Assembly (NCBI GenBank): GCA_034189865.1
Contig: JAXHTV010000011.1
Coordinates: 1 to 64,000, forward strand
Reading direction: 5' to 3'
From: Pseudomonadota bacterium
GTDB taxonomy: Bacteria > Pseudomonadota > Gammaproteobacteria > UBA5335
Length of the DNA stretch: 64,000 nucleotides
The notes under the pieces were generated by a model, which was not told the DNA's origin, did not search any database, and saw only the letters and a list, made by a program, of their open reading frames with translations. A program made the position numbers and the translations under genes. Positions 18,543 to 35,067 of the stretch are shown here, piece after piece (the first letter of the stretch is position 1; every line of letters begins with the position of its first letter).

Positions 18543-20420
18543 TCAGAACCGCCAGCGCAGCTGCACAGAACCGGTTCGTTCTTCCCAGTCGTCCCGCTCG
18601 AGCACGGTCTGATAACTCAGCCGAAGGCCGATGTGGCGGCCCAACTGCCAGTCCAGAGCCGTTGCGACGACGAATGCGTCGGGATCATCGAACACTGTCT
18701 CCACGACCACCACCTGCGCGGTGGGCAGGGTGACCGATGCTTCGTCTTCCTGGTTGAGGAATTCCCGTTGGTAGCCGACTTCCACCACGGGACGAAGCTG
18801 CGTGCGGCCGAGATTCAGGTCCGCGGCGAGCTGAATGCCGGCCATGGCGAGCAGCGAGCTGGCCTCGGCTTCTTGCACCTGCAAATTCAACGGTCCGCCG
18901 TCGCGTTCTTCGTAGGCGTCGATCTCGGTCCGGGCGAATGCCACGTCTACGACCGGTCCGAAGCGCAGCGGGCCCAACCCGAAGTTGTAGCCGGCGCGGC
19001 CTTCGGCCGAGAAGGTCATGCCGTCGGTTTCCCCGTGGGCGATGGGGTAGACCGACAAGCCGGTGTGGCGCTCAATCACGCCGAAGTCCTCAATCGCAAA
19101 GCCCAGCCGGGCGCCGGCATAGGCATGCTCACCGGTCATGGTTACGAAGCCGTTAACGGCGATTTCATCGAGTTCGATCCGGCCCAGTCCATCGCTTAAC
19201 GTCGCTTCGGACTGGCCGTAGCCCAGCGCGATGCCGAGGCTCGCCGTGTCGGTCACGGGAAAGCGAGTCCCGATGCCCGCCGCCCAGGCGTCGTGCTCGA
19301 AGCCGACCGTTGCGCTGTTCGGGTCCCGCTCACCCTGGATGCCGCTGCCGTAGAAAAACAGCGATCGCCGGCCGTGCCGTTGCTCGGGTTCCGGCGCCGG
19401 TACCGGCGCGCCGGCACTGGCCAGTTGGTATGGTTGGGTCAAAGCAACTTGTTCGCCCCCCGTTGCTGGCCGCGCCGAGCCGTTGGCCAGTTCACTGTTC
19501 AGCAGTGCGCCATGGGCGCGTGTCATCAACAAGGCCGATTGGGCCGCAATGGCGGGAAACGACGGGCCCGCATCCACGGCGTGAATCGTACCGGTAACCA
19601 TCTCGGCGATGGTTTGCTGCGTCTGGGGGAGTGACCCCAGATCATCTTCGAACAAGCTGCCGATCACCGGCAGACGCGAGGCCAGATTCAAATTTTCCGA
19701 CTGAGGTGTGATGCCATAGCGCTCCGGGTTCGCGGCAATGTCTGCGCCCAAGCCTTCCAGGTCCACCAGGTAGACTTTTAGGCCCGCCTCCCGGCTCAGT
19801 TCGTCGAGTTGTTCGGCCAGCGCCATGTTGTCGGCATTGCGGCTTTCGGTCTCTTCACCCGATACCGCGGTGTTGAAAATCACAAACCGGTTGCCACCGG
19901 CTTCCGACAGGTCGCGAATTCGTTGTTCCAGTTCGCCCGAGTTCACCGAGTTGCCAAGATTGAAAGCACCGCCGGTCAGCCGACCGAGTTGCTCAATGAG
20001 CTGGGACTGAGGCGGGTTGAGAATAATCAGATCGGTCTCGGAAAAACCGAGTTCGCTCGATGGCTCGTCCGCTCCCAACGCCGAGTCCATCAGATTTCCC
20101 AATAACCGCTGGCCAAGACCGCGAGTGTCCGGTTCGGGTTGATCGAACGTGGGAGAGATAAAGCTCACTTGATCAGCGGGGATATCGAGCGACTCACCCA
20201 GCTGGGTGAGCCAGTCCCTGGTTTCCACCTCCGGTCCCGTGATGCCGCTCACCCGCGATGAGAGCCGAACCAAGGGGCCCGAACCGGAGATGGTGTCTGC
20301 GCCGGGGGTGGAGGGGGAGCCAATTACGTAGATCGAAGGGCGCTCTTCAGCCGCCCAACTTCCGGGTAGTACTGCCAGACTCAAACAAAGTGCCACGGCA
20401 GTTCGGATTTGCTCCGCCAT
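18543..20420 (-). CDS. Autotransporter with degenerate GDSL-esterase-like passenger
   Basis: A 625-residue type V secretion protein. A signal peptide (AVALCLSLAVLPGSWA, cleaved near residue 24) is followed by a passenger of about 310 residues and a C-terminal beta-barrel (about 345-625) ending in the outer-membrane signature RWRF with terminal Phe. The passenger follows the layout of GDSL esterase autotransporters such as EstA (an ELEQRIRDLSEAGGNRFVIFN block and a NPERYGITPQ block). However, the nucleophile block GDSxSD is replaced by GSPST (34-38), the GxND block reads ILNPPQSQ, and no DxxH block is seen. It is therefore probably a non-enzymatic surface protein derived from an esterase. Start has AGAGGT upstream. 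Confidence 0.8.
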   Translation of the reverse strand: MAEQIRTAVALCLSLAVLPGSWAAEERPSIYVIGSPSTPGADTISGSGPLVRLSSRVSGITGPEVETRDWLTQLGESLDIPADQVSFISPTFDQPEPDTRGLGQRLLGNLMDSALGADEPSSELGFSETDLIILNPPQSQLIEQLGRLTGGAFNLGNSVNSGELEQRIRDLSEAGGNRFVIFNTAVSGEETESRNADNMALAEQLDELSREAGLKVYLVDLEGLGADIAANPERYGITPQSENLNLASRLPVIGSLFEDDLGSLPQTQQTIAEMVTGTIHAVDAGPSFPAIAAQSALLMTRAHGALLNSELANGSARPATGGEQVALTQPYQLASAGAPVPAPEPEQRHGRRSLFFYGSGIQGERDPNSATVGFEHDAWAAGIGTRFPVTDTASLGIALGYGQSEATLSDGLGRIELDEIAVNGFVTMTGEHAYAGARLGFAIEDFGVIERHTGLSVYPIAHGETDGMTFSAEGRAGYNFGLGPLRFGPVVDVAFARTEIDAYEERDGGPLNLQVQEAEASSLLAMAGIQLAADLNLGRTQLRPVVEVGYQREFLNQEDEASVTLPTAQVVVVETVFDDPDAFVVATALDWQLGRHIGLRLSYQTVLERDDWEERTGSVQLRWRF

Positions 20421-22300: not shown

Positions 22301-22966
22301 ATGTCACCAAATCGAAAATTCATCTGGGTGGTCGGTACCGCCGTTTTGGCATTTGTGTTGTTGAACCTGACTCCGCTCAGTGCGTTGCTGGAAAGCCACC
22401 AAAGCTTGAAAGCCGCATTGGCACAATCCGGTGTCTGGGCGCCGGCGGTGTTTACCGGGGTCGGGGCGTTATTGGTGGCACTGGGAATGCCCCGTTTGAC
22501 GCTTTACCTTCTGGGTGGCGCGGCCTTCGGATTCTTGGAAGGCTTGGTTTGGGCCCAGATCGGCAGTTTGTTGGGTTCGTTGTTGTTGTTCGAGGTCGCT
22601 CGCTGGGGCAGCCGCGAATGGATGGCTCAGCAGCGTGAGCGCATCGACGGGCGCTTTTTGGCGTTGCTGGATCACCCGACGGTGATGTCCGTTTTTATGT
22701 TACGTCAGCTCCCCATCACTGCCGGTGTGATCAACATGATTCTGGCTCTGAGTCCGGTGAGCAGGGCAACCTTTCTGCTGGGCAGCTTTCTGGGGATGTT
22801 ACCGCAGGGCGTGATCATCTCCCTGATCGGCAGTGGCTTGGGCAAAGATTCGCCCCAGCTCGCGGCGCTGCAGTTGGTGAGTGGGTTGCTTTTGATGTTG
22901 GCTTGGGGGTTTTGGGGATGGCGAGCTTGGAGTTCGATACGAACCCCTGGAATCAAAGGCGGGTGA
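22301..22966 (+). CDS. TVP38/TMEM64 (VTT) family membrane protein, second copy
   Basis: A 221-residue VTT-domain membrane protein, paralogous to the one at 3336-4040. Layout: N-terminal helix (FIWVVGTAVLAFVLLNL), a helix at about 45-60, the VTT core LGGAAFGFLEGLVWAQIGSLLGSLLLFEVARWG, the conserved LRQLPITAGVINMILALSPVS motif and GSFLGMLPQGVIISLIGSGLG, with a final helix. Family members are linked to lipid scrambling and membrane homeostasis. The true start is ATG 22301; the longer frame from 21884 runs antisense through the MBL hydrolase gene. It is divergent from that gene and convergent with the PmoC-like gene. Confidence 0.88.
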   Translation: MSPNRKFIWVVGTAVLAFVLLNLTPLSALLESHQSLKAALAQSGVWAPAVFTGVGALLVALGMPRLTLYLLGGAAFGFLEGLVWAQIGSLLGSLLLFEVARWGSREWMAQQRERIDGRFLALLDHPTVMSVFMLRQLPITAGVINMILALSPVSRATFLLGSFLGMLPQGVIISLIGSGLGKDSPQLAALQLVSGLLLMLAWGFWGWRAWSSIRTPGIKGG

Positions 22967-22990
22967 CGGGCGTCCACACCCATCACCCGC
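22959..22990. terminator. Possible shared terminator stem between VTT and PmoC-like genes
   Basis: GCGGGTGA (22959-22966) and TCACCCGC (22983-22990) form an 8-bp stem with a 16-base loop at the meeting point of the convergent genes. On the plus strand it is followed by TTGGTTTATTT, a weak T-tract. The first arm includes the VTT stop codon. Confidence 0.4.
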
Positions 22991-23004: not shown

Positions 23005-23775
23005 TTAATCGGATTGCAGGCGCGTTAAGGTCGCCATCTTGGCCAGGCATTGGACAGTAAAGCCTGTGAGCCCGAAAAATCCCCACCCCAATACGACAAA
23101 TCCCCAATGGATGGGGGCGGCGAACAGTTCTTCCGCATAAAAGAATGTATGTCCCCACTCATTGAATCCGAGATTCGGCATGATCAGAATGGGCGCCGCC
23201 ACCACCAGGGCCAAGGGAATGGAAATCCGGTGGCGGAAGTCCGGTAGCCGGGTATGGACCCACACAAAGCCCATGGTCATGGCGCAAGCGGCTGCGGGAA
23301 TACCGAAATAAAATAAACCGATATGGGTCGGGGTAAAGTCAGTATCCCGGATGGTGACCTGATGCCATGCGGCATCCGATTCCACCCAAATGCCTACCGC
23401 AGCCAGAATGATCAGGCTGCCCAGCGCGGTTGCCCCCAGGGTGGCCTGGTAGCGTGCCAACTCCGTTTGAGGACTGATCGGATCGGCGTCCGACTCTCGC
23501 GTGAACCATAGATACGTGACGCCCACTAACCCCACCAAGGGAATGGCGATGATCTGGGTCCAGAACAAAGGCATCCAGTAAGTTTGAAACTCGGGCGAGA
23601 AGTAATCGAGTCCGGTAGTGAAGGCGTAGTTGTGCTGATACCAGCGGTAGATGCCCAGCGTGATCAGGGCCATTCCCACCGGTATTCCCAGTGTTTTCCA
23701 GGGAAATTTCAGTGACGGGTTGGCGAGACGGGCCGCTCTGGCACTGGCGGCAGAGAGTTGATCGGTGTGCGACAT
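23005..23775 (-). CDS. Particulate methane/ammonia monooxygenase subunit C homologue (PmoC/AmoC), stand-alone
   Basis: A 256-residue integral membrane protein of the copper membrane monooxygenase subunit C family. Family blocks are all visible: GLDYFSPEFQTYWMPLFW (55-72), VESDAAWHQVTIRDTDFTPT then H151, LPDF, and NLGFNEWGHTFFYAEELF with PIHWGFVVLGW. The residues matching the metal ligands of Methylococcus PmoC are present with identical spacing: D134, H138, H151 (CuC site, D156/H160/H173) and N205, H209, H223 (CuD site, N227/H231/H245). Even the distance between the two groups (71 residues) is the same. No subunit A or B gene is in the window. A histidine kinase gene lies 145 bases upstream on the same strand. 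Start ATG has GAGGGGG upstream, after a leader hairpin. Family is firm; substrate unknown. Confidence 0.92.
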   Translation of the reverse strand: MSHTDQLSAASARAARLANPSLKFPWKTLGIPVGMALITLGIYRWYQHNYAFTTGLDYFSPEFQTYWMPLFWTQIIAIPLVGLVGVTYLWFTRESDADPISPQTELARYQATLGATALGSLIILAAVGIWVESDAAWHQVTIRDTDFTPTHIGLFYFGIPAAACAMTMGFVWVHTRLPDFRHRISIPLALVVAAPILIMPNLGFNEWGHTFFYAEELFAAPIHWGFVVLGWGFFGLTGFTVQCLAKMATLTRLQSD

Positions 23776-23787
23776 ATAAGCCCCCTC

Positions 23788-23808
23788 GGAGCAGTACCCC
23801 CCTGCTCC
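23788..23808 (-). promoter_or_regulatory. Leader hairpin immediately upstream of the PmoC-like gene
   Basis: Arms GGAGCAG (23788-23794) and CTGCTCC (23802-23808) pair perfectly with a 7-base loop. In the PmoC-like transcript the stem lies directly before the GAGGGGG ribosome-binding site and 13 bases before the ATG at 23775, so it could affect translation or transcript stability. On the plus strand it is followed by TTTTATTATT and would look like a terminator, but nothing is transcribed into it in that direction. Confidence 0.5.
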
Positions 23809-23920: not shown

Positions 23921-25693
23921 TCACGAAGCCATGTCGCTGGCCTCGCCGGGATTCGCCGGCGGTCCCGGCAACGTGAAGTAAAATGTGCTCCCCTGGTCAA
24001 TCACCGATTCAGCCCATACCCGGCCGCCGTGCTTGGAGATTACGCGCTTGACGGTCGCCAGCCCGATGCCGGTCCCTTCGAATTCCGAGGCCGGGTGGAG
24101 TCGTTGAAACGGCGTGAACAGTTTGTCGGCATATGCCATGTTGAAACCGGCCCCGTTATCCCGCACGAAAAAGGCCGGTTCACCTTGGATGGTCGTGTGT
24201 CCGACCTCAATGTGCGCACGGCCAGTCCGCAGTGAAAATTTCCAGGCGTTGCCGAGCAGATTTTCCAAGGCGATTCGTAACAGTTTCGGGTCTGCCCAGG
24301 CTCGCAGATTGGGTTCTACCTGGGTGGTGACGCTATGCGTGCGATCGTTATGCGCCAACTTGGTGATTTCGGCTTGAGCCATTGAAGACAAATCGATGTC
24401 GCGCTGGCGCAGGGTTGCCCGCGTGACGCGGGACAGCAGCAGGATGTCGTCGATCAGCTGATCCATCTCGGCGGCGCCCTTGCTGATCAGCTGCATGTGA
24501 TTCCGGCCGCGAGAGTCCAATTGTTGCGCATAATCGGCTTTGAGGTTGTGGATGAGGCCGCTGATTGCCCTTAACGGTGCCCGCAGGTCGTGGGAGACCG
24601 AGTAAGAGAACGATTCCAGCTCCCGGTAGGCGTCCTCCAACTCGGCCGTGCGTTGGGCGACACGGGATTCGAGTTCTCGATTGAGTTCGCGAATTTCCTG
24701 TTCGGCGCGTTTGCGTTCGGTGATGTCCTGATAAGTCCCCATCACGCCGATTATTTCCCCGGCTGCGTTGCGAAGCGGTACCTTGGTGGTCTCCAGCCAA
24801 ATGGTGTCGCCTCGCGGGGTGGTTTGCGGTTCTTCATAGTGGAGTTTGGCTTCGCCGCTGGCGATTACCGCGGCATCATCTGCGCGATACAGTTCGGCTT
24901 GTTCGGACCAGACCAAGTTCCGGTCGTCTTGTCCAAGGATCTGCTTTGTCTCGTCGAGCCCCGCATCCTGCGCGAACAGTTTGTTGAAGCCCAAGTAGCA
25001 TAAATTGCGGTCTTTCCAAAAGACCCGGACGGGAATCGCGTCGAGCACGGTTTGCAGCATCACGGCTGCGTCCAGCATGTCCAGTTGGGCCTTTTTGCGA
25101 TCGGTGACGTCGAGCCGGGTTCCGATCATCCGGCGGGGTTGGCCGGTATCGCTGGTTTCCACGATCCGGCCTCGGTCTAGCACCCAGCGCCATTCGCCCC
25201 CGTCATGGCGGATTCGGTAAACGGCTTCAAAGTGATGGTGGCCGGCTTTGAGATGATCGTTCAGCGCTTGACGGACCGCGTCGGCGTCATCCGGGTGAAT
25301 GCCGGTAAACCAGTCGCTCATCGAAATGTGCGCATTTTGCTGGCCATCTGTGTCGCCACTGGACCGTGAGGGCGTGAGGTGAATCTCGTCGGCGACAACG
25401 TTCCAGTCCCACAGGATTCCCTGAGCGTTCTCCAAAGCAAGCTGGAGCAAAGTTTCCAATTCGTGTTTGGACGCGACCACCGCGCCAGCGGGCGTGCGGG
25501 CGCTCCAGTCGCTCGAGGTGGCGGCTACAGTAGCGCCAGGCGCACTTGGACGTCGCCAGCGACTGATGGGGATGTAGGCGAGTGGATCTCGGGTCCGGCC
25601 AATCCACAGCGCGGCGGCGAAAAGGCCCGGAAGAACGATGAGTATCAATGCCCACGCTACGCCGGGTTGTTCAGCAAACCAGCTGGAAATCAT
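23921..25693 (-). CDS. Membrane-anchored PAS-domain sensor histidine kinase
   Basis: A 590-residue sensor kinase. Order: one N-terminal membrane helix (about 12-32), PAS/PAC domain 1 (about 85-200, with the WRWVLDRGRIVE and GTRLDVTDRKKAQ features), PAS/PAC domain 2 (about 210-328, ending GVMGTYQDITERKRAEQEI), a coiled linker, the HisKA dimerisation helix with phospho-acceptor H368 in SYSVSHDLRAPLRAI, and an HATPase_c domain (about 470-580) with N-box ALENLLGNAWKF, G1 VRDNGAGF and G2 GTGIGLATVKR. It resembles the phytochrome-type bacteriophytochrome-like kinases with cytoplasmic PAS sensors. No response regulator is adjacent. It precedes the PmoC-like gene on the same strand. Confidence 0.92.
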   Translation of the reverse strand: MISSWFAEQPGVAWALILIVLPGLFAAALWIGRTRDPLAYIPISRWRRPSAPGATVAATSSDWSARTPAGAVVASKHELETLLQLALENAQGILWDWNVVADEIHLTPSRSSGDTDGQQNAHISMSDWFTGIHPDDADAVRQALNDHLKAGHHHFEAVYRIRHDGGEWRWVLDRGRIVETSDTGQPRRMIGTRLDVTDRKKAQLDMLDAAVMLQTVLDAIPVRVFWKDRNLCYLGFNKLFAQDAGLDETKQILGQDDRNLVWSEQAELYRADDAAVIASGEAKLHYEEPQTTPRGDTIWLETTKVPLRNAAGEIIGVMGTYQDITERKRAEQEIRELNRELESRVAQRTAELEDAYRELESFSYSVSHDLRAPLRAISGLIHNLKADYAQQLDSRGRNHMQLISKGAAEMDQLIDDILLLSRVTRATLRQRDIDLSSMAQAEITKLAHNDRTHSVTTQVEPNLRAWADPKLLRIALENLLGNAWKFSLRTGRAHIEVGHTTIQGEPAFFVRDNGAGFNMAYADKLFTPFQRLHPASEFEGTGIGLATVKRVISKHGGRVWAESVIDQGSTFYFTLPGPPANPGEASDMAS

Positions 25694-30333: not shown

Positions 30334-30876
30334 CTACCTCAGGGTATCCACCTCTGAGATTTCCGGGGCGGTGATGGTCAGGTTGGGGACTGTTTCGTTG
30401 TCCCAGATGTTTTGGCCGCGAATGCACTGCTGAACGGTGGGGAACTCCAGCGTGATCTGGTCAGTTCCTTGCGGAAGCTCGGGCAGGGTCAGTCGGAATT
30501 GGAACACCTCGTACTGGGCGTCGGGGAGCAACCCCAGAGACCACTGGATGGCGGTTACATCTTCAAAATAGAGCGTGCCGTGGCTTTCGAAGGGCTCCAC
30601 CGGGCCGCGCTGCGCTCTGACCAGCCACTGCCGCGTGTAACGGGGTTTGATTCGCATGGCGGCCGGTGTCACGCCCGGTCCGTTGGGCATTTGTACCTGT
30701 ACGCTCCGGGTGGCGCTGCCCTCACAACCATGGGCGATCCGCAGCCCCACTTCCACCGTCTGGCCGGCGACGAACGTGTCTTCCACGAATACCGCGTGGC
30801 CGTGAGCCGTACCGCTAACAAACGCCAGCAATGCGCCGGCGAGAATTGCGCCGCTCATGGGCGAATGATGGTGCAC
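30334..30876 (-). CDS. YcnI-type (DUF1775) exported copper-binding protein
   Basis: A 180-residue exported protein of the DUF1775/YcnI family. From the GTG start (GGAGG eight bases upstream) there is a short signal peptide ending TAHG, giving a mature N-terminus beginning HAVFVEDTF; in characterised YcnI the N-terminal histidine of the mature protein binds Cu(II). The family motif appears as VGLRIAHGCEGSATRSVQVQMP, and the C-terminal domain ends with QQCIRGQNIWDN. Role is probably periplasmic copper handling. No CopC/CopD gene is adjacent, though copper-linked candidates occur elsewhere in the window (PmoC-like gene; CopD-like partial gene at the right end). Confidence 0.85.
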   Translation of the reverse strand: MHHHSPMSGAILAGALLAFVSGTAHGHAVFVEDTFVAGQTVEVGLRIAHGCEGSATRSVQVQMPNGPGVTPAAMRIKPRYTRQWLVRAQRGPVEPFESHGTLYFEDVTAIQWSLGLLPDAQYEVFQFRLTLPELPQGTDQITLEFPTVQQCIRGQNIWDNETVPNLTITAPEISEVDTLR

Positions 30877-31081
30877 GTTTAAGACCTCCGTGTGAATTTC
30901 GCTAATGGCGCTGTTCCTGTTTTGGCTCAGGGGCATTGTAGGTACGACTGTTGGTTCAACAGGATGCGGCATGTTGTCGCGGCGCCCCGGGTTGTGTGTC
31001 GTTCCCATCGGGTGGGATGGACTTGAACGGCTGTTTAGGGCTTACTGTAGCGAACGAAATATCGAGTCATTTGGAGGGGGG

Positions 31082-31832: not shown

Positions 31833-32939
31833 TTAGCGTTCGCTGAGCTTTTTAGAGTTTTTCGGGGTGCGGAAAACCAACGGTGCGTTTGGTTCGGACG
31901 CCGCCTCGGCCGTGATGTTTTGAATGAGCCCGTGATGGGGTGATTTATCGCAAACCGGATCGGCGTTGGCGGCATCACCGGTCAACAGATACGCTTGGCA
32001 GCGACAGCCGCCGAGATCTTTGGATTTTTCCGGGCAGGTGCGGCAGGGAGTTTTCATCCACGCGTCGCCGCGATACTGATTGAAGGCGGCGGACTCGTAC
32101 CAGATGGTGCGCAGAGCATGGTCCTTGACGTTGGGAAATTCCAAACCCGGAATCACTTGCGCCGCGTGGCAGGGGAGTGCGGTGCCATCGGGGGTGATAT
32201 TCAAAGCCAGCTTTCCCCAACCATTCATACAAGCCTTTGGCCGCTTTTCGTAATAATCGGGCACGACATAATAAATTTTCATCGCGCCCTGGTAGTCGGC
32301 CCGAAACACCTCAACGTCTTTCTCCGCTTGTTCCAGTTGGGTCCGCGTGGGTAACAGCGCGGACCGGTTTATAAGCGCCCAACCGTAGTATTGCGTGGTT
32401 GCCAGCTCCACATAATCGGCGTCCAGACTCTGCGCCAGGCGCAGCATGTCGGGGATCTGGTGCAGATTGTGGCGGTTCAACACAAAGCATAAGACCATGG
32501 GGTAACCGACGGATTTAACCGCCCGGGCGATATCCAGCTTGTGCTCGAATGCGCGCGTTCCCGCCAGGTGATCGTTGAGCTCCCGTGTTGCTGCCTGGAA
32601 GCTGACTTGGATGTGATCCAGCCCCGCGGATTTGAGCGCTGCGATGCGCTCACGGTCGAGGCCGACTCCAGAGGTGATGAGGTTGGTGTAAAAACCCAGT
32701 TCCCGCGCGTGTTCAACCAGGGTTTCCAAGTCGCGCCGGGTGGCTGGTTCGCCGCCGGATAATCCCAGTTGCGCGGCACCCAACGCCCGTGCCTGCTGGA
32801 ACACGTCAATCCATTGCGCCGTGGTGAGTTCCGCTTTGGTCCGAGAGAAATTGACCGGGTTGCTGCAGTAAGGGCATTGCAGCGGGCAGGCGTAGCTCAG
32901 CTCGGCCAACAGCCACAGCGGCGGATTTGAGTCAGCCAT
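31833..32939 (-). CDS. pqqE: PqqA peptide cyclase (radical SAM) PqqE
   Basis: A 368-residue radical SAM enzyme that makes the Glu-Tyr carbon bond in PqqA, the first step of PQQ synthesis. The SAM cluster motif [18 protein letters not shown] is near residue 20, and the C-terminal SPASM-type cysteines are in [22 protein letters not shown] and [19 protein letters not shown]. All look intact. It overlaps the pqqD stop by 8 bases (start ATG 32939; two ATGs a few codons upstream are alternatives), so the two are translationally coupled. It is the last gene of the pqqABCDE unit and is convergent with the transglutaminase-like gene. Confidence 0.96.
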
Positions 32940-33207
32940 CTTCATGGATCCAGCCATTGGCCTTCGCGGTACTCAGAAATTCAATCACGTCGGCCTGCAG
33001 GTCGACATCCGGAAAGGCGTGTTGCAAATTCGAGATGATTTCCGCTTCGGTCAGGCTGCCGTCGCAACGTTTGAGAATTTCGGCTGCGCTCGGGTTCAAG
33101 CGCACCATGCCTTCGGGATAAAGCAATACATGGCTGTCCTGCGCCGGTTCCCACTGTAAGCGGTAGCCGGGCCGAAGGCCGATTCGATGGTCAGGGCTTG
33201 CGGGCAT
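32932..33207 (-). CDS. pqqD: PQQ biosynthesis peptide chaperone PqqD
   Basis: A 91-residue winged-helix RRE-type chaperone that binds PqqA and presents it to PqqE. Family features are [36 protein letters not shown] and the C-terminal helix pair [21 protein letters not shown], which match known PqqD. Start is ATG 33207, 17 bases after the pqqC stop; the upstream frame extension covers pqqC and is spurious. Overlap with pqqE indicates coupled translation. Length is normal for the family. Confidence 0.95.
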
Positions 33208-33224
33208 AGGCGTCCGGACGGTTT

Positions 33225-33959
33225 CTAGTCGTCCACATTGAAGTAGGGCGGCATATTCAAGCAGTAGGCCATGTACATGGCATCTAGCATGGTCCAAAGG
33301 ACATCCAGCTTGAACTGCAAAATCTGTAGGGCCCGTTCCTGGTGTTCGCGGGTGTGGAAGTACTCCAACGTAAAGGTCAGACCATGGTCCACGTCGCGAC
33401 GCGCTTCCTTTAGGCGGTTGCGGAAGTACTGCAGACCTTCCTGATCGATCCACGGGTAGTGTTCGGGCCAGGTATTCAGCCGCTCCTGGTGGATCTTCGG
33501 CGCGAACAGTTCGGTCAGTGAAGAGCAGATGCCTTCCTGCCAACGGGCTCGGCGGACGAAATTCACATAGGCATCGACGGCAAAGCGAACGCCCGGCAAC
33601 ACGTGCGTTTGGGATTCCAGTTCTTCCCTGCTCAAGCCAACCGCTTCGCCCAGGCGGATCCAGGCCTCAATGCCGCCTTCATCGCCTGTGCGTCCGTCAT
33701 GATCGAGTATGCGTTGAATCCATTCCCGCCGAATCTCGCGATCGGGGCATTTCGCTAGCAATGCGGCATCTTTCAGCGGGATATTGATCTGATAGTAAAA
33801 GCGGTTGGCGACCCAGCCTTGTATCTGCTCCCGGTTGAGCTGGCCCGTGGCCATTTGGCTTTGAAACGGATGGTAGATGTGATAACGCCGCTCCAGCGCG
33901 CGCAAGTGTGCTTCGAATTCTTCCCGCGTCCAGGGTTGGGTTTCGCTGGCCAGTGTCAT
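33225..33959 (-). CDS. pqqC: Pyrroloquinoline-quinone synthase PqqC
   Basis: A 244-residue cofactor-independent oxidase that carries out the final ring closure and eight-electron oxidation yielding PQQ. Family motifs are [55 protein letters not shown] and the late [29 protein letters not shown]. It begins 8 bases after the pqqB stop and is followed 17 bases later by pqqD. Length and motifs are typical, with nothing missing. Confidence 0.96.
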
Positions 33960-33967
33960 GGGTGCCC

Positions 33968-34882
33968 TTACAGTGTGAAATCCATGCCGTCGTAGGCGAC
34001 TTCAATGCCTTCGCGTGCCAGTTCGGCGCGCTCGTTGGAATTCTCGTCTAATATTGGATTGGTGTTATTGATGTGTATCAATACCTTACGCGGCTTTTTC
34101 AAGGGTCGGAGCAATTCAATCATGCCGTTCGGTCCGCTCTGTGCGAGGTGACCCATCTCCGATGCCCGTTTCATTCCCACGCCGCGACGTTGCATTTCAT
34201 CGTCCGTCCAGGTGGTGCCGTCGACCAAGAGTAGGTCGGCGTTTTCCATATAGGGTAAAAGATGCGGCTCGAAGTTCCCGAGCCCAGGTGCGTAGAACGC
34301 AGATTGTCCCGTTTTTTTGTCCTCGATTTTCACGCCGATGTTGTCCCCCCAGTGGGCATCTTCCCGGTGCGGTGAATAAGGGGGGGCTTTGCTGGACAAG
34401 GGCACGGGTACGAAACGTAAACCGGCCACCTGAGGAATCTCGAATTGCGGTTGCTCCAGGTCGATCCGTTGCCAGTTGACGCCGCAGTAGTGGTTGAGCA
34501 TGCTCAAGACCGGAAAGCCGCTGGTAAGATCCTGATAGACCTGATCGGTGCAATACAGCGCTAGCGGCTGACTTGATTCCCGGAGCGTCAGAAGGCCGGC
34601 GGTATGGTCGATCTGGCTGTCCATGAGCACAACCGCCACGATGCCGGAATCCCGTTTGGCGCGGGCCGGTTGCAGTTCCGGAGTGGCGATGATCTGCTGG
34701 CGGATGTCGGGTGAGGCGTTGATCAGAACCCACTGGATTCCATCGCCGCTGACGGCAATGGAGGATTGGGTGCGGGGCGATGCCTGGATTTCCCCACGCC
34801 GATATCCGGCGCAGTTGTCGCAATTGCAGTTCCATTGTGGGAAACCGCCGCCTGCCCCTGATCCAAGGACGTGAATTCGCAT
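33968..34882 (-). CDS. pqqB: PqqB, metallo-beta-lactamase-fold hydroxylase
   Basis: A 304-residue MBL-fold protein reported to hydroxylate the cross-linked peptide-derived tyrosine in PQQ synthesis. It begins [24 protein letters not shown] and shows the conserved [17 protein letters not shown] metal motif, the acidic [11 protein letters not shown] segment and the C-terminal [12 protein letters not shown] motif, in which H-x-N-N-T-N-P is a PqqB signature. A perfect 11-bp hairpin lies between pqqA and this gene, about 45 bases upstream of its start, as often seen where pqqA is expressed in excess. Confidence 0.96.
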
Positions 34883-34926
34883 GGCTTGCTCGGCCCGAGT
34901 GGGCTCATTGAGGGTCCGTTAAACGG

Positions 34927-34969
34927 CGACGGCCCGGAACATGCAGTTTTAGCGTGCGCCGGGCCGTCG
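34927..34969 (-). terminator. Attenuator-like hairpin between pqqA and pqqB
   Basis: CGACGGCCCGG (34927-34937 plus strand) and CCGGGCCGTCG (34959-34969) are perfect 11-base arms with a 21-base loop. In the pqq transcript the stem lies 24 bases after the pqqA stop and 44 bases before pqqB. There is no T-run, so it more likely limits read-through or stabilises a short pqqA transcript, giving more precursor peptide than enzyme. Confidence 0.6.
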
Positions 34970-34992
34970 GTAGGGTTTGTCGATCAGCCGGC

Positions 34993-35067
34993 TTAGCGGT
35001 TGAAGATGTACATGGTGACTTCGAAACCCAGTCGTATGTCCTGATAGGCGGGTTTGGTCCAGTTCAT
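34993..35067 (-). CDS. pqqA: PQQ precursor peptide PqqA
   Basis: A 24-residue peptide starting [20 protein letters not shown] and ending IFNR. The E16-V-T-M-Y20 core is invariant in PqqA: Glu and Tyr are joined by PqqE to form the PQQ skeleton. It is preceded by AAGGAAAGGA about eight bases before the ATG and followed by the TAA stop. Too short for ordinary gene callers but unmistakable in its position ahead of pqqB, pqqC, pqqD and pqqE. Its promoter should lie in the 160 bases shared with divergent argB. Confidence 0.97.

Follow-up and report, generated by a model that had tools for sequence, protein, structure and literature searches.

A lone subunit C gene, probably of a hydrocarbon-type copper monooxygenase, in a gammaproteobacterial genome with more C than A and B genes

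Of what use is a gene for subunit C of a copper membrane monooxygenase (CuMMO) when no gene for subunit A or B lies near it? The question is raised by the window, a stretch of 64,000 nucleotides of contig C11 of a gammaproteobacterial draft genome, in which one PmoC/AmoC-type gene stands on its own; the original prediction, that A and B are missing for tens of kilobases around it, is true over the whole 92.6-kb contig. A 2018 survey described bacterial xmoAB as "always clustered" with xmoC (PMC6215863), and singleton amoC/pmoC genes are known from ammonia oxidizers and methanotrophs, for example AmoC3 of Nitrosomonas europaea (PMC6215863, PMC7674155). We consider it rather likely that the window gene encodes a working spare subunit for a hydrocarbon-type CuMMO, that C has become uncoupled from the operon, and that an A-B pair lacking its own C takes a lone one.

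Residues 21-251 of the window C match the Pfam family PF04896 with an E value of 5.5e-63 (213 bits; cut-off 26.7), and solved PmoC and AmoC chains match it in a PDB sequence search with E values down to 3.5e-53. An AlphaFold2 model built on 53 sequences (mean pLDDT 82) gives 20 PDB matches at E<=0.001, all of them C chains of pMMO or AMO and mostly at TM scores of 0.7-0.8, so that the predicted PmoC/AmoC family call stands. The protein stays below the NCBI equivalog cut-offs for the methane and ammonia C (201.5 against 280.6 bits for TIGR03078; 235.9 against 319 for NF041641) and shares 39% identity with the C of G036, whose family score far exceeds that of any other relative from the class; a C of a methane or ammonia oxidizer is thus unsupported.

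D134/H138/H151 and N205/H209/H223 of the window C correspond to the known ligands of PmoC, D156/H160/H173 and N227/H231/H245 in Methylococcus (Table 1). Once aligned, all six are intact at the spacing claimed for them, 4/13 and 4/14 with 71 residues between the two sets; they are invariant in 25 of 25 relatives, and 52 of the 53 sequences of a wider set keep every one. The sole departure is an operonic C of NORP220 (L178:4668-5450), which has D at the position of N205. Residues 201-211 of the model, which overlap part of the N205/H209 site, are of low confidence.

Table 1. Positions in the window of the lone C gene, the codons of its presumed metal ligands and nearby features
Feature	Position	Strand	Basis or remark
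Lone pmoC/amoC-type gene, hydrocarbon-type CuMMO subunit C	23005..23775	minus	256 aa; Pfam, PDB and fold matches
D134 codon, first metal site	23374..23376	minus	alignments A1/A2, invariant
H138 codon, first metal site	23362..23364	minus	invariant in alignments
H151 codon, first metal site	23323..23325	minus	invariant in alignments
N205 codon, second, CuD-type site	23161..23163	minus	52 of 53 sequences
H209 codon, second metal site	23149..23151	minus	invariant in alignments
H223 codon, second metal site	23107..23109	minus	invariant in alignments
Terminator-like hairpin, 14 pairs, just 3' of the C gene	22959..22990	minus	scan, consensus match only
7-bp hairpin in the C gene leader, perhaps without a role	23788..23808	no strand	scan, sequence
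PAS-PAS-HisKA-HATPase sensor kinase, upstream, codirectional	23921..25693	minus	Pfam; 145-bp gap to the C gene

Partners for the window C are present in its own genome (G000), a draft of 2.91 Mb in 72 contigs, gammaproteobacterial to judge by its named relatives, that is 99.4% complete and holds six C, two A and two B genes. One complete C-A-B operon lies on contig C4, and contig C28 carries A and B together with another conserved gene, where 6.8 kb read upstream contain no C. The remaining five C genes are lone (C2:155950, C4:40147, the window C on C11, C51:5472 and C54:608); contig C51 ends at its C gene, and that copy must also be lone because all A and B genes found in the genome are accounted for elsewhere. 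The original prediction had offered a "swap-in subunit of a monooxygenase encoded elsewhere" as one possibility, and such A-B sets do exist elsewhere in this genome, one of them without an adjacent C. With six Cs against two A-B sets, one of which is C-less, the various Cs probably serve as exchangeable components of a single enzyme.

The same arrangement recurs in related genomes. A C-less A-B operon is present in four of the five other genomes of the family (G002-G005), while in G001, which is 82% complete, only the complete operon was seen. In G000 and G002-G005 the C-free stretch read upstream of A spans 6.7-8.5 kb, and an assembly artefact is unlikely, given the recurrence in five genomes of the family with at least 6.7 kb free of C in each. 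The ratio C:A:B is 6:2:2 in both G002 and G005; G018, which belongs to a different family, has 9:1:1. Further genomes give about 9:3:3 (NORP120, G037), 10:2:2 (NORP74, G038), 6:2:2 (UBA3067, G039) and 7:1:1 (NORP332, G040), with split B genes counted once and one NORP332 C itself in pieces; these named genomes are metagenome-assembled drafts, in which copies may be collapsed or split. C genes thus number up to ten per genome against one to three A-B sets. C-less A-B pairs also occur in UBA3067 (L198, 8.3 kb read upstream) and NORP332 (L199, 1.7 kb upstream); a pair in DC_out226 (G041) is cut at a contig end and was left out of the C-less count.

Genomes of Solimonas, Panacagrimonas, Polycyclovorans, Nevskia and Polaromonas, as far as counted, have one or two Cs, with C-A-B operons where these were read. 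Solimonas, Panacagrimonas, Polycyclovorans and Polaromonas, the nearest named isolates or genera with a hydrocarbon-type CuMMO (about 47-54% identity to the window C), have as many Cs as As and Bs where counted, whereas the window's genome has an excess of C. The singleton amoC/pmoC genes of ammonia oxidizers and methanotrophs resemble the window C in being intact and distant from the operon, but in those organisms xmoAB keep an operonic C, whereas one A-B set of the window's genome lacks it and the ratio of Cs to A-B sets reaches nine to one. The genomes with C-less A-B sets therefore do not fit the published statement that xmoC always accompanies xmoAB in bacteria (PMC6215863), and pmoC counts from metagenomes can put the number of enzymes too high. 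A literature search, with most subscription journals outside its reach, returned no paper describing such an excess. Other arrangements were seen in these drafts: three C genes stand in tandem without adjoining A or B in UBA3067 (L145:5300-8780), and B genes in two pieces occur in NORP74 and NORP332 (L139:3816-4986, L199:7753-9013, L142:9781-11035), by frameshift, assembly error or real split.

These C-less sets also bear on whether a lone C might act independently of A and B, binding or sensing copper in the membrane. The intact metal ligands and the PAS sensor kinase gene adjoining the window C would suit such a role, which we nevertheless regard as improbable: the C-less A-B sets need a C, lone and operonic Cs have many invariant residues in common besides the ligands, and the annotated neighbours of the lone Cs in G000 share no family and include no copper-handling system.

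Phylogenetic trees suggest which C goes with which A-B set. In the C tree (83 rows; supports as bootstrap/SH-aLRT), many of the lone Cs from the window's family, from G018 and from UBA3067 and NORP332 share one clade (94/96) with three operonic Cs, L094 (G018), L137 (NORP120) and L142 (NORP74). The B tree puts the C-less operon of the window's family beside the G018 operon (90), and a second C-less group together with L137, L142 and UBA3067's own operon (97). The A tree joins both C-less groups to L094, L137 and the complete operon of the window's family (99). The complete operon of the window's family has a distinct C of its own (100/100 in the C tree). Most lone Cs hence look like partners of the C-less A-B sets, as they cluster with operonic Cs whose A and B are close kin of those sets. 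The single separate clade of lone Cs that the original prediction had named as possible support did not appear: lone and operonic states alternate in the C tree, where well-supported branches force at least four changes. The window C itself has a long branch, the longest among the Cs of its genome. No sister of it has support, and none of four positions, with the L082 group, with the L078 group, in a 48-row clade or among the family's operonic Cs, was rejected (AU p 0.30-0.64); the five related genomes hold no clear ortholog of it.

Such a branch might mark a duplicate of little function, a leftover drifting towards loss, and some lone C copies in relatives do decay: one is split in NORP332 (L163:2595-3415) and one has a stop in DC_out226 (G041:C209:1325-1798). 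For the window C we give this fate very little credence, the least of the alternatives weighed here, since its six ligands and whole fold are intact, its dN/dS against its paralogs is 0.09-0.12 (a rough pairwise value, as synonymous sites are saturated), and orthologous lone Cs persist across species, as in NORP74 and NORP120. Pairwise dN/dS between orthologous lone Cs is 0.025-0.085; the A and B genes that form the C-less operon give 0.016-0.061, the complete operon falls in the same range, and the CuB histidines are conserved in the B proteins of C-less operons. These low values show constraint: purifying selection acts on the C-less A and B genes and, strongly, on the orthologous lone Cs, so that all of them are most likely in use.

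How the window C may be controlled can be read from its surroundings. Beyond the terminator-like hairpin at its 3' side lies a convergent VTT gene, and the two together suggest that no other gene follows C in its transcript. Matches to this VTT gene in G001-G005 are weak at best, so that no orthologous place for the window C was found there. Upstream regions of G000, G002 and G005 suggested a palindrome, TTGAMCGNNCGKTCAA, which recurs with at most two mismatches in 10 of 12 upstream regions of G001, G003 and G004, where 0.06 would be expected from the genome-wide rate; these three genomes were not used in finding it, but two of them, G003 and G004, are closely related to G002 and G005, which makes the counts non-independent. 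A weight matrix, built partly from the scored sites themselves, exceeds a score of 14 at 22 of 32 C or A-B starts of the family and in 13 of 2234 background stretches. The C-less A-B pair of G000 has a weak match only (10.4), and the C group of L082, L087, L101 and L109 lacks an operator of this type. So does the window C within 320 bp upstream, where the best score is -5.7 against a background median of -2.0. Without the operator common to many Cs, the window C is probably made under a different signal, as a separately controlled spare C.

Separate control would also be expected of a stress form, a C that replaces the regular one under heat, starvation or copper stress with the substrate unchanged, like AmoC3 of N. 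europaea. The absence of the common operator and the terminator-like hairpin of its own are in keeping with this idea, and condition-dependent extra amoC/pmoC copies have been reported (PMC10030591, PMC7674155). We still think it unlikely, because no stress-type promoter was identified for the window C, and because the excess of C over A and B, together with a C-less A-B operon, goes beyond a single stress copy.

The operator also bears on the substrate. At two mismatches TTGAMCGNNCGKTCAA is no commoner genome-wide than a reversed control, and what makes it informative is solely that it stands before C and alkane genes. Its sites in G000 stand before an aldehyde dehydrogenase and before acyl-CoA ligases, and adjoin FA_desaturase-family (alkB-like) proteins and a quinohemoprotein alcohol dehydrogenase (1yiq, E 3e-230); one FA_desaturase-family protein at another site matches the alkane 1-monooxygenase 8f6t (E 1.6e-39). 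The operator-linked genes would form a route from alkane through alcohol, aldehyde and acid to acyl-CoA, which makes a hydrocarbon the best guess for the substrate, ahead of methane or ammonia. As the TetR-like operator is shared by many Cs, most C-less A-B operons and alkane-degradation genes, the enzyme is probably a hydrocarbon monooxygenase; the window gene, itself intact, would encode a spare C of this copper enzyme. A TetR gene on contig C17 of G000 has the operator 25-40 bp before its own start, but was set aside as regulator of the whole regulon, its only clear ortholog being in G001; a second TetR, on contig C1, is better conserved and has no good operator upstream.

Taken as a spare C, the window gene may be one of several from which a monooxygenase is completed. 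A and B from the C-less operon would probably take C from a lone gene, some of the dispersed Cs being co-regulated with the C-less A-B pair and others, such as the window C, not; different A-B-C enzymes could then be built by switching which C is produced. The sequences show the gene content, the intact ligands, the constraint on orthologous lone Cs and C-less A-B genes, and the agreement of the trees for most lone Cs; that the window C assembles with A and B, which A-B set it would join, what switching would bring and what the enzyme oxidizes are inferred. The active site of pMMO-type enzymes is still debated between PmoA, PmoB and PmoC, the second PmoC metal site being one proposal (PMC10030591); with that site as a leading candidate, a swap of C could alter substrate range, affinity, or the demand for copper or oxygen. 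We suggest, more tentatively, a modular monooxygenase in which one A-B scaffold from the C-less operon would combine with several alternative, possibly catalytic Cs into a set of related hydrocarbon-oxidizing enzymes that differ in their properties. With A and B constant and C varying, these bacteria would offer a natural system for testing directly the part of C in substrate choice and copper chemistry.

The nearest parallel is the archaeal AMO of Nitrososphaera viennensis, with a single amoA, a single amoB and six amoC genes, for which the authors suggested that alternative Cs might yield different activity profiles (PMC10030591). Both systems have many dispersed Cs and few A and B genes; N. 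viennensis, however, is an archaeal ammonia oxidizer, whereas the genes described here are bacterial and of hydrocarbon-type sequence, include C-less A-B sets, and have an operator in common with alkane genes.

Genes for C without A and B are also carried by phages of freshwater methanotrophs (PMC7674155), though those are phage-borne and of methanotroph type, whereas the window C lies on a bacterial contig. A phage origin of the window C was rejected, as it has no match in 50,697 phage records and two phage Cs from IMG/VR branch elsewhere. These two lone Cs (L205:1933-2682 and L206:419-1207), which are 64% alike and possess all six ligands, lie beside terminase, portal and, in L205 only, PhoH genes; they branch near operonic Cs of NORP220 and DC_out160, outside the group of the window C, and represent a hydrocarbon-type C in phages.

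Other genes of the window deserve mention. A pqqABCDE-like cluster on the minus strand (31833-35067) encodes a PqqE-like radical SAM protein, a PqqD-like C-terminal stretch, PqqC, PqqB and a PqqA-like peptide of 24 aa (34993-35067), the names PqqA and PqqD being our presumption. The product of such clusters is the cofactor of the quinohemoprotein alcohol dehydrogenase class. A DUF1775 gene (30337-31038), of a family with copper-binding members, has an operator-like site, TTGAACGGCTGTTTAG, at 31023-31038 (score 16.5). Finally, a 625-aa open reading frame at 18543-20420 looks secreted, with a barrel-like C-terminal part, and by its sequence gives the impression of an autotransporter, perhaps.
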